DNA of 64,000 nucleotides from Bdellovibrio sp. BCCA (GTDB lineage: Bacteria; Bdellovibrionota; Bdellovibrionia; Bdellovibrionales; Bdellovibrionaceae). The stretch covers positions 2,914,001 to 2,978,000 of the forward strand of contig NZ_JBBNAC010000001.1 in assembly GCF_037996825.1 (NCBI RefSeq), given 5' to 3'. Shown here piece after piece: positions 16,235 to 32,167 of the stretch. The position numbers and the translations under genes are program-made. The notes under the pieces are model-generated. The model was given only the letters and a program-made list of their open reading frames with translations, had not been told where the DNA came from and made no database searches. Position 1 is the first letter of the stretch. Every line of letters begins with the position of its first letter.

Positions 16235-17314
16235 ATGAAGATTTTGAAGATATACAAACCATTCGTAGCGGGTCTTTTAGGCACGATGCTCCTTGCCGGA
16301 TTTACCGGAAAGGAAAAATACGTTGAGCTTGAAAGCTATCTTAACGGGCGCACTTCAGCGTCGTTTACGGCAAGCTCCAATAATATTGCAGAGACTTTGC
16401 AAGCAGGAACTCGCGGCGAGATCCTCGAGTATAAAAAACTTCCTTCGGGTAATTATGGTTTGCGTATCAAGGTGCTTAACGGCAACCATGCCAATAGCGT
16501 CTTTTGGGTCTACCATAAACTCAGTGATTCTGATTTAGCTCTTTATGAAACAGTTCCTCAAGGTTGGGGCAAATCCCGCGCGGTGGCTTCTGTTGAAAAA
16601 GCCCGCGGAGTTCAAACAACTCGCGACACGCAAGCTCGCACGGATTCGGGTCGCACAGCGGTGGAATTGATTGGTCAATCTAATAAGTCTTTAAAAACTG
16701 CAGGCGAACCAGCCTGTGTGAATTGCTCGATTTCTCCGGTGGCGGGACAGCGCTCACTGCTTCGCCCTCCAACAACTCGTGGGATGTCGAAAGCATGTTC
16801 TAATTTGATGAATGCCGAAGGCGAACTCGGTCCTCAAGGACAAAGTGTTTTTTCTATCATGGCTGAGTCTAAATACGCAGGTTACTTCACAGCGAATAAT
16901 GCCCTAGGAAGTTTCTGCCCGAAGTTCAATACTCTTTCTAAGTCACAAAAACTTCACGCTTGGACTTGGTTCTGGACAGCCTTGGCAAAAGAAGAATCCA
17001 GTTGCAACCTAACACAGAAACATGGCACGACTTACAGAGACAAAGCCGGCAACTTGCGTGTCTTGAATCCTCGCGAAGGTTACGGCATGTGGGCTCTTGA
17101 AAGAGACCGCAACGTGCGCGCATGGCGCGGAGCTGCTTGCAGCAACATCGGAACAGCCGAAGGCCAGGCACGATGCTCTATCGACATTATGATGCAAACA
17201 CAGTTATCTAAAGGAAGAACGGCCGGAGTCAATTCGATGAGTTATTGGGGACCAGTTCGTCGCGGTAACACTCAATTGATGCCACACATGAGGAGACTAA
17301 GCTTATGTTTCTAA
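16235..17314 (+). CDS. Exported protein with lysozyme/transglycosylase-like C-terminal domain
   Basis: A 359-residue exported protein. The N-terminus (M-K-I-L-K-I-Y-K-P then a hydrophobic run to about residue 22) is a signal peptide or anchor. Residues about 55-95 resemble an SH3-like domain (G-T-R-G-E-I-L-E-Y...Y-G-L-R-I-K-V...V-F-W-V-Y). Residues about 245-350 look like a goose-lysozyme/SLT-type fold: a helix ending A-L-A-K-E-E-S-S-C-N with a plausible catalytic Glu, then G-Y-G-M-W, and S-Y-W-G-P. Several cysteines suggest disulfides. A role in cutting peptidoglycan, of self or prey, is inferred. The next gene overlaps its last 10 bp, so the two are probably coupled. Confidence 0.75.
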   Translation: MKILKIYKPFVAGLLGTMLLAGFTGKEKYVELESYLNGRTSASFTASSNNIAETLQAGTRGEILEYKKLPSGNYGLRIKVLNGNHANSVFWVYHKLSDSDLALYETVPQGWGKSRAVASVEKARGVQTTRDTQARTDSGRTAVELIGQSNKSLKTAGEPACVNCSISPVAGQRSLLRPPTTRGMSKACSNLMNAEGELGPQGQSVFSIMAESKYAGYFTANNALGSFCPKFNTLSKSQKLHAWTWFWTALAKEESSCNLTQKHGTTYRDKAGNLRVLNPREGYGMWALERDRNVRAWRGAACSNIGTAEGQARCSIDIMMQTQLSKGRTAGVNSMSYWGPVRRGNTQLMPHMRRLSLCF

Positions 17315-17739
17315 ATATCAGAACTACTTTAGCAGTCGCTTTAACGTTCCTTAGTTTTTCAGCTCACGCGCAAAAAGCCGCTTTCTTGGAAGCGGGAAAA
17401 TACCAACTGACTTCGGGAGAGAAGGCTCTGTGCAGAAGTCTTTCGATTTCTGAAAGTGATTTGCAGGCAAAGCGTTTGTCCATCGGTGGCCTTTATGATT
17501 TCGAAGTAGGAAATTCAATCCACAATATCGAATCCGACATCGATCCTGATTGTGAGTTCAGAGAACAAAACCGCGTGCAAAACCGCAGCAACGACACTTT
17601 GTTGGTTCGTATCAATGAAGAGTATTGCAAAGGGACATTGCGCTCTAAAACAGTTTCAGCCGCTGTTATCACTCCAAACGAAATTCAAATCCGTCATCAA
17701 GTGGACGGGGCTGAGGTAAACTGCGTTTGGCAAAAATAG
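17305..17739 (+). CDS. Small exported protein of unknown function
   Basis: A 144-residue protein with a classic signal peptide (hydrophobic run then S-A-H-A-Q, cleavage after Ala22). The mature protein is mostly beta by pattern and has four cysteines, probably two disulfides. No family recognised. Its ATG lies inside the end of the lysozyme-like gene (10 bp overlap) with GAGGAG upstream, so the two proteins are likely made together; a periplasmic inhibitor, chaperone or partner of the lysozyme-like protein would fit, but that is speculation. Confidence 0.75.
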   Translation: MFLNIRTTLAVALTFLSFSAHAQKAAFLEAGKYQLTSGEKALCRSLSISESDLQAKRLSIGGLYDFEVGNSIHNIESDIDPDCEFREQNRVQNRSNDTLLVRINEEYCKGTLRSKTVSAAVITPNEIQIRHQVDGAEVNCVWQK

Positions 17740-28308: not shown

Positions 28309-28451
28309 CGCACCATTCCGTAACAAGGCAAATGAAATTGATTCTCTAGTCGACTCACTTCTAAACTTTAATTTCCACTCAAATATCAATCGAGGAGAAG
28401 TCTAGTGTTATGCAACACGGGATTTCAGAGGGGCCTCGAGAAGGGAATCAT

Positions 28452-29870
28452 ATGAAAAAGATGGCTCTGTACGTGAGTTCTGCCATTGTTGCGTTGGGCA
28501 TTTCCGCTCAAGCGAATTCAAAAAAGCAAGATTTGCTTATAAAATTGGCACCTGGCTTCGTTGAGTTCCAAATGGAAGGCGCCAAAGTCGAGAAATTGAC
28601 GGAATCATGGGTTCGAGTTCAAGCTCCACGCCACATGAATTTGCAAACTCTTGAGAAAAATCCTGCGGTTGAATACGTGCAACCAAACTACAAAATCACG
28701 ATTCCAGAAGATTATAAAATTGAAGATCCTCTTCGTCGCGCGGCTTTAGCGAAGATGCTTTCAAGAAATCCTCAGCTTCGCGCGATGGCTCGCCAAGACA
28801 ATCCGGCGATTCCTGACGCTCCGCAAATCACAACGGGTGCCGATCCTTTGTTCAACCAACAATGGGGCATGCGCGACATTGGTGTAGTTGACGCTTGGAA
28901 AATCACTAAAGGCAGTCCTGATATGATTGTGGCTGTGATCGACACAGGTGTTGATTATACTCACGAAGATCTTTTGCCAAACTTGTGGAGAAACCCACGC
29001 GAAATTCCAGACAACGGTATTGATGACGACGGCAACGGCTATGTTGACGACATGATCGGTTGGGACTTTGTTGGTAACGACAACAAACCTTACGATTTGG
29101 CCGTAGATACTTTGGATGGCTTGTTCAAAGGTGGAAATCCAGGTCACGGCACTCACTGTGCGGGTAACGTCGCAGCTCGCGGTGATAACGGCAAAGGTAT
29201 TGCCGGAGTTGCTCCGAATGTAAAAATCATGTCTTTGCGTTTCATCGGTATGACTGGTGGCGGAACAACTGCAGATGCGATCAAAGCCATTCGTTACGCT
29301 GTTGATAATGGCGCGAAAGTTTTGAGCAACTCTTGGGGTTCTGAAGGCGAAGAGCCCGGCGCACCAGAAAACCAAGCTTTGCGCGATGCTATTCAATACA
29401 GCCAAGATAAAGGTGTGTTATTTATCGCTGCTGCGGGTAACGGACACAAAGGTGTTGGTTATGATAACGATACGGACAAGCTTCCTGCTTACCCAGCGTC
29501 TTACGATCATGAAAACATCATTTCTGTTGCAGCACTTGATGTGAACAACAAATTGGGTTCTTTCTCTAACTGGGGTGCGAAAACTGTTGATATCGGCGCG
29601 CCGGGCGTGAAAGTGTTCTCGACTGTTGTAGGTCAAGGTTACTCTGACACTGTTATTGATAAATTTGGATTCAAAGCGACTTGGGATGGAACGTCTATGG
29701 CGACTCCTCACGTTGCTGGTGCAGCGGCTCTTTACTGGTCCGCTCATCCAAACAAATCATGGCATGAAGTGAAAGCGGCGATCTTAGGTTCCGCGAAAGC
29801 GATCCCGGCATTGCAAGGCAAAACTGTGTCAGGCGGCAAGCTTGATGTAAAAGCTTTGATGAATTACTAA
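28452..29870 (+). CDS. Secreted subtilisin-family serine protease (S8)
   Basis: A 472-residue subtilase with a signal peptide (M-K-K-M-A-L-Y-V...A-Q-A-N-S), an I9-like propeptide of about 70 residues, and the catalytic domain from about residue 110. Catalytic triad: Asp in V-I-D-T-G-V-D, His in G-H-G-T-H-C-A-G, Ser in G-T-S-M-A-T-P-H-V-A-G; the oxyanion Asn is in A-A-A-G-N-G. Two D-D-(D/N)-G-N-G-Y-V-D-D repeats near the Asp look like calcium-binding loops. ATG at 28452 is chosen for its clean signal peptide (AAGGGA upstream), but the in-frame ATG at 28410 also has GAGGAG. Secreted proteases of this type fit prey or protein digestion. Confidence 0.93.
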   Translation: MKKMALYVSSAIVALGISAQANSKKQDLLIKLAPGFVEFQMEGAKVEKLTESWVRVQAPRHMNLQTLEKNPAVEYVQPNYKITIPEDYKIEDPLRRAALAKMLSRNPQLRAMARQDNPAIPDAPQITTGADPLFNQQWGMRDIGVVDAWKITKGSPDMIVAVIDTGVDYTHEDLLPNLWRNPREIPDNGIDDDGNGYVDDMIGWDFVGNDNKPYDLAVDTLDGLFKGGNPGHGTHCAGNVAARGDNGKGIAGVAPNVKIMSLRFIGMTGGGTTADAIKAIRYAVDNGAKVLSNSWGSEGEEPGAPENQALRDAIQYSQDKGVLFIAAAGNGHKGVGYDNDTDKLPAYPASYDHENIISVAALDVNNKLGSFSNWGAKTVDIGAPGVKVFSTVVGQGYSDTVIDKFGFKATWDGTSMATPHVAGAAALYWSAHPNKSWHEVKAAILGSAKAIPALQGKTVSGGKLDVKALMNY

Positions 29871-29909: not shown

Positions 29910-29966
29910 AAAAAAGTAGAACGAGCACTAAACCGAAAGGATTTAAAATGCGCGTTCTACTTTTTT
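29910..29966. promoter_or_regulatory. 14-bp inverted repeat enclosing the yceI ribosome-binding site and start
   Basis: AAAAAAGTAGAACG (29910-29923) and CGTTCTACTTTTTT (29953-29966) are perfect inverted copies. The 29-nt loop holds GAAAGGA and the ATG at 29948, and the right arm is codons 2-7 of yceI, followed by more T-rich sequence. It could act as a terminator for the protease transcript, as a translational switch, or both. Confidence 0.55.
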
Positions 29967-30553
29967 CTTTTTTAGCGACCGCTGCTTTTTCTTCTTCCGC
30001 GTTTGCCGCAAAATACGAGCTGGATAAAGCTCACACGAATATCGCCTTTCAGGCTCCTCACCTTGTGGTTTCCAAAGTCAACGGCCGCTTCGATCAGTTT
30101 GACGGCAGTTTCGATTTTGATGAAACGTCTCAAAAACTTGATAACGTCGTGGTCACCATTAAAACCGCTTCGCTTAATACGAATGAAAAAGATCGCGACA
30201 AAGATCTGCGCAGTAAAAATTTTTTCGACGTTGAAAAGTATCCCAATATAACTTTCAAAAGTACGAAGGTCGAATACGACAAAGACAAGCCCAAAAAAGT
30301 TCACGGAGATCTCACCATTCACGGCATCACGAAACCCGTTGTTTTGGATGTGAATTATAACGGCGCCGTGACCGACCCTTGGGGCAATCGCATGGTGAGC
30401 TTTGATGCGGAAACCAAGATTGATCGTAAAGATTTCGGGATGACTTGGAATAAGCAACTCGACAAAGGCGGATGGATGGTCGGTGATGATATTAAAATCA
30501 AAATCGACGGCGAAGCCAAAGTTGCAAAACCTCAAGCCCCTGCAAAAAAATAA
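29948..30553 (+). CDS. YceI family periplasmic protein
   Basis: A 201-residue exported protein of the YceI lipocalin-like family. A signal peptide (hydrophobic run, cleavage after S-A-F-A-A) is followed by the family core: Y-E-L-D-K-A-H-T-N-I-A-F, V-S-K-V-N-G-R-F-D-Q-F-D-G, D-L-R-S-K-N-F-F-D-V-E-K-Y-P, and L-T-I-H-G-I-T-K-P-V. The beta-barrel of relatives binds isoprenoid-type lipids such as polyprenyl chains in the periplasm. A short Lys/Pro/Ala tail ends it. No cysteine is present. It is the first gene of an operon with DUF692 and DUF2063 genes (14-bp gap to the next start). Confidence 0.93.
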   Translation: MRVLLFSFLATAAFSSSAFAAKYELDKAHTNIAFQAPHLVVSKVNGRFDQFDGSFDFDETSQKLDNVVVTIKTASLNTNEKDRDKDLRSKNFFDVEKYPNITFKSTKVEYDKDKPKKVHGDLTIHGITKPVVLDVNYNGAVTDPWGNRMVSFDAETKIDRKDFGMTWNKQLDKGGWMVGDDIKIKIDGEAKVAKPQAPAKK

Positions 30554-30567
30554 CTAAAGGAAGAAAA

Positions 30568-31422
30568 ATGCACCCGTCATCATTCACTCACAAAGTGGGG
30601 TTGGGCCTACGACCTCCTCATTATTCTTTTTTAGAACAAAGGCCTGCTACCGAAGTCGCGTGGTTTGAAGCGATCTCGGAAAACTACATGGACTCGCGTG
30701 GACGTCCGATGGAGATGCTCCAGCTCATTCGTCAGGATTATCCTGTCGCGCTTCACGGCGTTTCGATGAATATCGGTTCTCCTGAAGGTATTCGTTTGGA
30801 CTATCTACAAAAACTTCGTGATCTGATTGATCGTGTGGAACCGTTTATCGTTTCCGATCATCTTTGCTGGACGGGAACATCAGATATGAATATGCACGAT
30901 CTTCTTCCCCTTCCCTTCACGGAAGACAGTCTAGCGACTTTGGTAAACAATATCGATTTCGTACAAAATTTTTTGCGTCGTCCTTTGATTTTAGAAAACG
31001 TATCGACTTACATCAGCTATCGTCGCAATGAGATGAGCGAGTGGGATTTTGTGAGTGAGGTGAGTCGCCGATCCGGTTGCGGGTTGCTTCTGGATATCAA
31101 CAACGTCTACGTAAATTCTTACAATCACGGATTTGATCCGCATTATTTTTTAAATCACATTCCGATGGATCGTGTGGCGCAAGTTCACATGGCAGGGCCT
31201 TCGGACTATGGCGATTTTCTTTTCGACACTCACTCAACGGACATCCCGGAGCCTGTTTGGAATTTATTTAAAATTTTGGCGCCACAAATTCGCCACCTGC
31301 CGATTCTTATTGAGCGAGATGAAGACATTCCTGATTTCCATGAGCTTGAAGTTGAAGTGATGAAGGCTGTTTACATTTTGGAGAGTTCACATGAATCTGA
31401 ACGAAGCATTGAACCTGTTTAA
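30568..31422 (+). CDS. DUF692 family MNIO (multinuclear non-heme iron oxidase), MbnB/BufB-like
   Basis: A 284-residue cytosolic TIM-barrel enzyme of the DUF692 family, whose characterised members (MbnB, TglH, BufB) use two or three irons to modify cysteines or other residues of ribosomal peptides. Probable metal-site positions: H63 (L-H-G-V-S), D97/H98 (S-D-H-L-C-W), E143 (I-L-E-N-V-S), D176 and N179 (L-L-D-I-N-N-V-Y-V-N), H207 (V-H-M-A-G), D220/H222 (D-T-H-S-T-D) and E249 (I-E-R-D). Where most relatives have A-G-H, this one has A-G-P (P211), so one probable ligand is changed. AAAGGA precedes the ATG. The next gene overlaps its end by 32 bp. No Cys-rich precursor is adjacent. Confidence 0.92.
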   Translation: MHPSSFTHKVGLGLRPPHYSFLEQRPATEVAWFEAISENYMDSRGRPMEMLQLIRQDYPVALHGVSMNIGSPEGIRLDYLQKLRDLIDRVEPFIVSDHLCWTGTSDMNMHDLLPLPFTEDSLATLVNNIDFVQNFLRRPLILENVSTYISYRRNEMSEWDFVSEVSRRSGCGLLLDINNVYVNSYNHGFDPHYFLNHIPMDRVAQVHMAGPSDYGDFLFDTHSTDIPEPVWNLFKILAPQIRHLPILIERDEDIPDFHELEVEVMKAVYILESSHESERSIEPV

Positions 31423-32167
31423 AAGAAATATTGCCTCTGGCCAGGTGAGCGACGGCAAAGCGGAAGCAGAATTAAAACCCGTTGGCTCGCTTTCTTTGGA
31501 GCAAGCCTTTCAAGTCTATCACCAAGGCTACGTTGCCCGTCTGACCGGAGCCTTACGTGAAATTTATGAGGCTTCCTCGTGGGTTTTAGGTGAAGATGAA
31601 TTTCACAACGCCAGTCGCAAGTATATCAACGCTCAACCCTCACGCTCGTACAATCTTTCTGATTACGGTCATGAATTCCCTGAGCACTTGCAGATGTCTT
31701 CTTTGGGCACAGCTCATCCGTTTCTCTATGATCTTGCGCGCTTTGAGTGGACTTTTAAAAACATGTATCACACGCCGACATCAGATCCTTTTCCAGCCGA
31801 GGAAATTCAGGCATTGCTGAATTCAGAAGATTTCAAAGTGCATTTCATTGAGGGCATGGACATCTTTCAGAGTCCTTATGCGATCTATGAAATTTGGCGA
31901 CGCCGCAATGATCCTTCGGGAACAATTCAAGATATTCACTGGCAAACACCTGAAAGTCTTTTGGTGTATAAGAAGCAAAAGAAAATTTACGTGCACAAAA
32001 TTGATCACGTGGAAGCTCAGGTTTTAACGGAACTTAAAGAAGGAAAATCCGTTTCCCAGGCCCTGGTGGGTTTTTCTCACGTCTTAACGTCAGAAAAAAT
32101 CACGCAGCTTTTTCAAATAATCATGAGAGCGGGAATCATTGAAGACGTCTTGGTTTTAGAAACCTAA
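31391..32167 (+). CDS. DUF2063 family MNIO partner (BufC/HvfC-like)
   Basis: A 258-residue protein of the DUF2063 family. The N-terminal domain (labelled putative DNA-binding in Pfam) opens with L-F-K-R-N-I-A and contains [15 protein letters not shown] and [12 protein letters not shown], both typical. The C-terminal half is mixed alpha/beta. In known systems this protein acts with the DUF692 enzyme, probably as a peptide-binding or recruiting subunit. Its start is 32 bp inside the MNIO gene, so the two are translationally coupled. The last 4 bp overlap the convergent chemoreceptor gene. Together with yceI this forms a compact three-gene operon. Confidence 0.88.

Follow-up and report, generated by a model that had tools for sequence, protein, structure and literature searches.

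The bufferin gene set normally yields a modified copper-binding peptide, the Cys modification of the BufA2 clusters being of the thiooxazole type. Operons of the BufA2 bufferin type are already known, and what stands out in the locus described here is its link to YceI and an enzyme that has no precursor and is yet constrained. In the MNIO family (DUF692), TglH binds its irons through H71, H107, E151, D184, N187, H216, D229, H231, and E258 (PMC10880893). In FonB, D249 is the catalytic base and the D249A variant is inactive, and the Cys-Lys specificity position is Asp251 in BufB2 (PMC13097082). Lipocalins of the YceI family bind isoprenoids, e.g., ubiquinone-8, and guard the envelope against lipid peroxidation (PMC9113575). 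In the window, i.e., the whole stretch of 64,000 nucleotides of Bdellovibrio sp. BCCA that was analyzed, members of both families are encoded side by side.

The operon consists of three co-directional genes on the forward strand. The first, yceI (29948..30553; PF04264, E=2.5e-52), encodes a cysteine-free YceI/lipocalin-type protein, the Sec signal peptide of which can be read directly from the sequence. A gap of 14 bp with a ribosome-binding sequence (30554..30567) separates it from the MNIO gene (30568..31422; MbnB_TglH_ChrH, 8.6e-100; AF2 model with a pLDDT of 89.6), which encodes the sole PF05114 protein of the genome. Its reading frame overlaps by 32 bp with that of the third gene (31391..32167; PF09836, 4.6e-17), which encodes a DUF2063 protein with a C-terminal RRE-like domain. 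The Pfam matches of all three proteins are above the cut-offs, and together with the coordinates they bear out the arrangement given in a preliminary description of this DNA. The same is true for its statement that a Cys-rich small ORF does not adjoin, as an ORF check of the operon and the window revealed no hidden small ORF with a Sec-like start and at least three cysteines in or beside the operon. A secreted 144-aa protein with four cysteines is encoded at 17305-17739, away from the operon. Genomes of Bdellovibrio sp., with 80-81% identity, are the nearest named relatives. Upstream lies the gene of a secreted subtilase (S8; 28410..29870, forward strand; PF00082), a syntenic neighbor that was rejected as a member of the system, because it is also present in genomes of the genus without the operon, and that is probably not part of it. 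In two genomes (G012 and G022; loci L050 and L058) the subtilase gene and yceI are separated by an insert whose long ends resemble inverted repeats and which may be a small mobile repeat.

The MNIO of the window passes the BufB equivalog model NF050167 (MNIO_BufB) with 332.3 bits (cut-off 310) and stays below the cut-off of the HvfB equivalog model (242.7 bits versus 360), by which it is classified as a BufB-type bufferin maturase. In the alignment nine of nine iron ligands are present (H63, H98, E143, D176, N179, H207, D220, H222, and E249), as are the catalytic base D251, R15, and E252. The latter residue occupies the position of Asp251 in BufB2; the acidic character is kept and would suit a target beside a basic residue. 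The preliminary description had regarded P211 (codon 31198..31200, forward strand) as an altered metal-site residue and had counted it among the features of a candidate undescribed system. The residue is indeed present, in the context H-M-A-G-P four residues past H207, where the HvfB homolog 3BWW and several other MNIOs of the order have AGH. However, alignments against the ligand list of TglH (PMC10880893) reveal that the position is not a ligand, and it is filled by G in TglH and by F or Y in MbnB, both of which are active. Moreover, the proline is conserved in 19/19 genus members with an operon MNIO, including those with bufA2, and occurs also in the bufA2-bearing relatives G033 and G044, so that it is not tied to the absence of the precursor. 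Judged from these alignments, P211 characterizes the lineage of this enzyme group and does not represent a change of the metal site, and a new system in which it endows the enzyme with a new chemistry is extremely improbable.

The AF2 model of the DUF2063 protein (pLDDT 93.6) matches the folds of TglI (8hci/8hi7) and NGO1945 (3dee); a phmmer search for relatives with solved structures gave no match. On the basis of the model, the protein is assigned as a BufC-type, RRE-bearing partner of the MNIO. An intact and syntenic DUF2063 gene is also present in G008 (L238:2538-3347), behind the gene of a 215-aa lipoprotein and without MNIO or yceI, so in this species the partner protein has outlasted its enzyme.

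Comparison with relatives was used to unravel the origin of the operon. In these, a short ORF for a Sec-exported peptide with six invariant cysteines lies between yceI and the MNIO gene, and two such ORFs were scored against the BufA2 model and are both BufA2 (66.2 and 65.1 bits, cut-off 60). The order yceI-bufA2-MNIO is present in two members of the genus (G005 and G020) and in three relatives from other genera and families (G033, G035, and G044). The site of bufA2 is the very junction that has shrunk to 14 bp in the window, and which measures about 300 bp in G005. The ancestral order is thus yceI-bufA2-bufB-bufC, and it has been kept in relatives. A survey of 84,980 species genomes, from which 80 loci were fetched, revealed the order yceI-bufA2-MNIO in 17 of them, which stem from Bdellovibrionales, Bacteriovoracaceae, Omnitrophota, Spirochaetia, and Binatia; in three further loci of the 80, all from Bdellovibrio, yceI adjoins the MNIO gene without bufA2. 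Among the bufA2 loci fetched from 291 Bdellovibrionota genomes, 24 have an adjoining MNIO gene, and yceI is directly upstream in 13 of these 24. The identity of YceI was confirmed by Pfam in the five loci that were checked. As the gene order is kept across the genus and the link to yceI recurs in several phyla, the arrangement is more than chance, and the adjacency of yceI extends far beyond this genome. Conserved neighbors elsewhere do reveal a precursor, in the ancestral form of the operon. The view that the locus is an undescribed system therefore did not hold; judged by its gene content and that of its relatives, it derives from a BufA2-type bufferin (captophorin) operon, the precursor gene of which has been lost.

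Variants of the gene set also came to light. In two Omnitrophota loci (L097:3980-5683 and L106:3965-5818) MNIO and DUF2063 are fused, behind yceI and bufA2 (confirmed by Pfam for two), and long MNIO frames are also found in the Omnitrophota loci L103, L116, L117, L119, L120, and L127. Two genomes, one from Spirochaetia and one from Leptospirales (L100:3992-6153 and L102:3995-6177), have a bufA2 between the MNIO and DUF2063 genes, and a second bufA2 follows past DUF2063. In L186, L187, L188, L191, and L196, bufA2 is solitary, as neither an MNIO gene nor a DUF2063 gene lies within about 1.5 kb. Upstream of other Bdellovibrionota MNIOs (L002, L004, and L005), Sec-exported Cys-Lys-rich peptides of a CKGK type are encoded, which passed no NCBIfam cut-off.

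Within the genus, an operon MNIO is present in 19/24 genomes and BufA2 in 2/24 (G005 and G020), as determined with a six-sequence profile, a 16-sequence profile (E up to 1), and the BufA2 family model. In the genome of the window (G000), the best match to NF050166 (E up to 10) had 13.3 bits, and the 16-sequence profile yielded none at E<=1; the best sub-threshold match was rejected, being a frame of 55 aa on the strand opposite a large gene. A DUF2282 precursor, a CKGK-type peptide, and an EGKCG motif were not found in this genome. A double CKG pattern (CKG..CKG) had two matches, equal to the control level, and these were rejected as well, one being antisense inside a 277-aa gene and the other containing an in-frame stop. 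The absence of a precursor postulated in the preliminary description is thus borne out, as no unpaired BufA-like peptide was detected genome-wide by these profile and motif searches, which would miss a short, unrelated, unlinked precursor. The whole-genome searches also support its proposal that the substrate is encoded elsewhere or is different. A tree of the operon with outgroups gave 73% support for the bufA2-less group and, when so rooted, placed G005 and G020 outside the rest; in a tree of NuoD, NuoB, and S8 the bufA2-bearing pair is likewise separate from the rest when so rooted. The simplest reading, with moderate support in the operon tree, is that bufA2 was deleted once, at the base of the main radiation of the genus.

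The enzyme has had different fates after the loss of bufA2. In 11 species without bufA2, including that of the window, none of the nine ligands is missing, and both D251, the base, and R15 are kept (11/11). In five further species (G010, G011, G012, G021, and G022; named Fe3-lost here) N179 is replaced by Ala and H222 by Lys, and D251 and R15 are lost. For HvfB it has been shown that alanine changes of the matching site-3 residues abolish activity (PMC13419390). Taken together with the inactivity of FonB D249A (PMC13097082), this indicates that the Fe3-lost enzymes are probably catalytically dead, and the G012 enzyme scores below the BufB cut-off. In G017 two or three of the nine ligands are left by identity and yceI does not adjoin the MNIO gene, G008 has lost both MNIO and yceI and retained DUF2063 in synteny, and four genomes (G004, G013, G015, and G016) have lost the system entirely. 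G015, a genus member without the yceI operon, contains two adjacent, highly divergent MNIO frames (L030; C6:326210-328035).

This graded series, from the full operon via the loss of bufA2, of catalytic residues (five species), and of ligands and yceI (G017) to DUF2063 alone (G008) and nothing (four genomes), would be in agreement with the view that the BufBC pair of the window is a decaying remnant without any catalytic use. However, when close or moderately distant members of the 11 species are paired and dS can be measured, the dN/dS values of the MNIO are 0.01-0.04, at dS values of 0.5 to over 2 (saturated in several pairs), and the ligands and the base are intact in all 11. Over that divergence neutral retention is not credible, and decay is an improbable explanation for the window. 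The MNIO of this clade is under strong purifying selection. For the Fe3-lost pair G012-G022 the dN/dS is 0.13, and the MNIO/NuoD branch-length ratios are 3.2 for the 11 species, 7.3 for the bufA2-bearing species (one pair only), and 7.8 for the Fe3-lost species, according to which the constraint on the enzyme of the window's clade is no weaker than that on the enzyme that still has its precursor. Six species of the genus have kept the MNIO frame after the loss of catalytic residues, so retention alone is no proof of catalysis. A non-catalytic scaffold role of BufBC is a further, rather unlikely explanation.

The complete active site and the strong purifying selection point to the retention of iron-dependent oxidation with a new substrate as the most likely reading, and we consider it fairly probable that the orphaned BufBC pair is still active and has a substrate different from BufA2. 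Following the deletion of bufA2 from an ancestral yceI-bufA2-bufB-bufC locus, most simply in one event, the pair stayed catalytically complete and strongly constrained in the lineage of the window. The RRE domain of BufC would bring the alternative substrate to BufB, which would oxidize it in an iron-dependent manner.

A candidate for this substrate is a small, Cys-containing secreted peptide, unlinked and unrelated to BufA2, the distant gene of which would have replaced the precursor gene of the operon. The complete active site for cysteine oxidation and the acidic E252 at the Cys-Lys specificity position speak in favor of such a peptide, and precursor genes distant from MNIO genes are known (PMC12452194). 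A possible example of an unlinked precursor from the same order is G040, in which BufA2 (C66:25534-25791) and the MNIO (C95:45466-46245) are encoded on different contigs. The searches described above count against it, as CKG..CKG frames did not exceed the control and EGKCG, CKGK-type, and DUF2282 sequences were missing; this does not prove absence. With a chance somewhat below even, the unlinked, unrelated peptide is a likelier single candidate than YceI.

YceI itself is a real and conserved partner of the operon. The genome of the window encodes six YceI copies, and the operon YceIs of Bdellovibrionota form a clade of their own, apart from the other paralogs in the same genomes. The operon yceI adjoins the MNIO gene in 18/19 genomes with an MNIO, the exception being G017, the enzyme of which has lost 7/9 ligands by identity, and in the five genomes without an operon MNIO no YceI copy that scores high enough for orthology falls into the operon clade. 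This co-inheritance and the losses in G017 and G008 tie yceI to the enzyme, and not to DUF2063 or the subtilase. A literature search did not uncover, among the matches listed, any paper that pairs YceI with MNIO, DUF692, MbnB, or DUF2063. The isoprenoid binding and envelope protection by YceI lipocalins make an accessory role in a copper-defense operon plausible, and most simply, YceI in the bufA2-bearing relatives would be an accessory periplasmic protein of a metal-stress system.

The preliminary description had proposed a non-Cys target, possibly YceI, which would make YceI a protein-sized MNIO substrate. In favor of this, the operon-specific paralog is tightly co-inherited with a catalytically competent MNIO, it has a Sec signal like the BufA precursors, and yceI and the MNIO gene overlap translationally in G011, G012, and G022. 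It has been argued that MNIOs may modify proteins (PMC12452194), and non-Cys targets of MNIOs are known (biphenomycin ortho-Tyr and homocitrulline). However, YceI has no cysteine, which excludes the ordinary cysteine chemistry and demands another residue if it is the substrate. Furthermore, the association of yceI with the operon spans several phyla and exists alongside BufA2, so YceI already had a role for which modification was not needed; the five Fe3-lost species retain yceI beside a probably dead enzyme; and the YceIs of intact and Fe3-lost species differ at few positions, among which no obvious new target is seen. Modification of YceI at a non-Cys residue is therefore unlikely, and YceI stays a candidate with evidence on both sides. 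The specific version, that BufBC was re-aimed after the loss of BufA2 and oxidizes a non-Cys residue of the folded, isoprenoid-binding periplasmic protein, is slightly less likely still. If true, YceI would, to our knowledge, be the first cysteine-free protein substrate of a BufB-group MNIO.

YceI, which is widespread and whose role is uncertain, is now linked to bufferin metal defense in several phyla. The genus represents a natural experiment, as it comprises the full operon, a complete enzyme without precursor, an eroded enzyme, and the partner alone, and it permits a test of whether an MNIO may survive the loss of its precursor by adopting a new substrate.

The locus resembles several described systems. 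It shares with the BufA2/BufB2/BufC2 bufferin (captophorin, Cys-Lys type) clusters the BufB equivalog score, the DUF2063-RRE partner, the catalytic base, and the iron ligands, and at the corresponding place its relatives encode a BufA2 equivalog; in contrast to these clusters, the genome of the window has no bufA2, and its operon starts with yceI and has no adjoining DoxX gene. The oxazolin-fontiphorin clusters HvfABC/FonABC (Lys-Cys, EGKCG) likewise have an MNIO and DUF2063-RRE pair and the metal site, but the MNIO of the window is below the HvfB cut-off, the genome has no EGKCG, and the base is followed by E instead of F. TglHI (3-thiaglutamate) and MbnBC (methanobactin) also combine a TIM-barrel multi-iron enzyme with an RRE partner, and the DUF2063 model matches TglI, whereas their sequences are distant and their precursors and pathways are different. 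Lastly, the YceI/BcnA lipocalins with cytochrome b561 (LcoA) belong to the YceI family and are isoprenoid-binding periplasmic proteins with a connection to oxidative envelope stress (PMC9113575), but the YceI of the window is linked to an MNIO pair instead of cytochrome b561.
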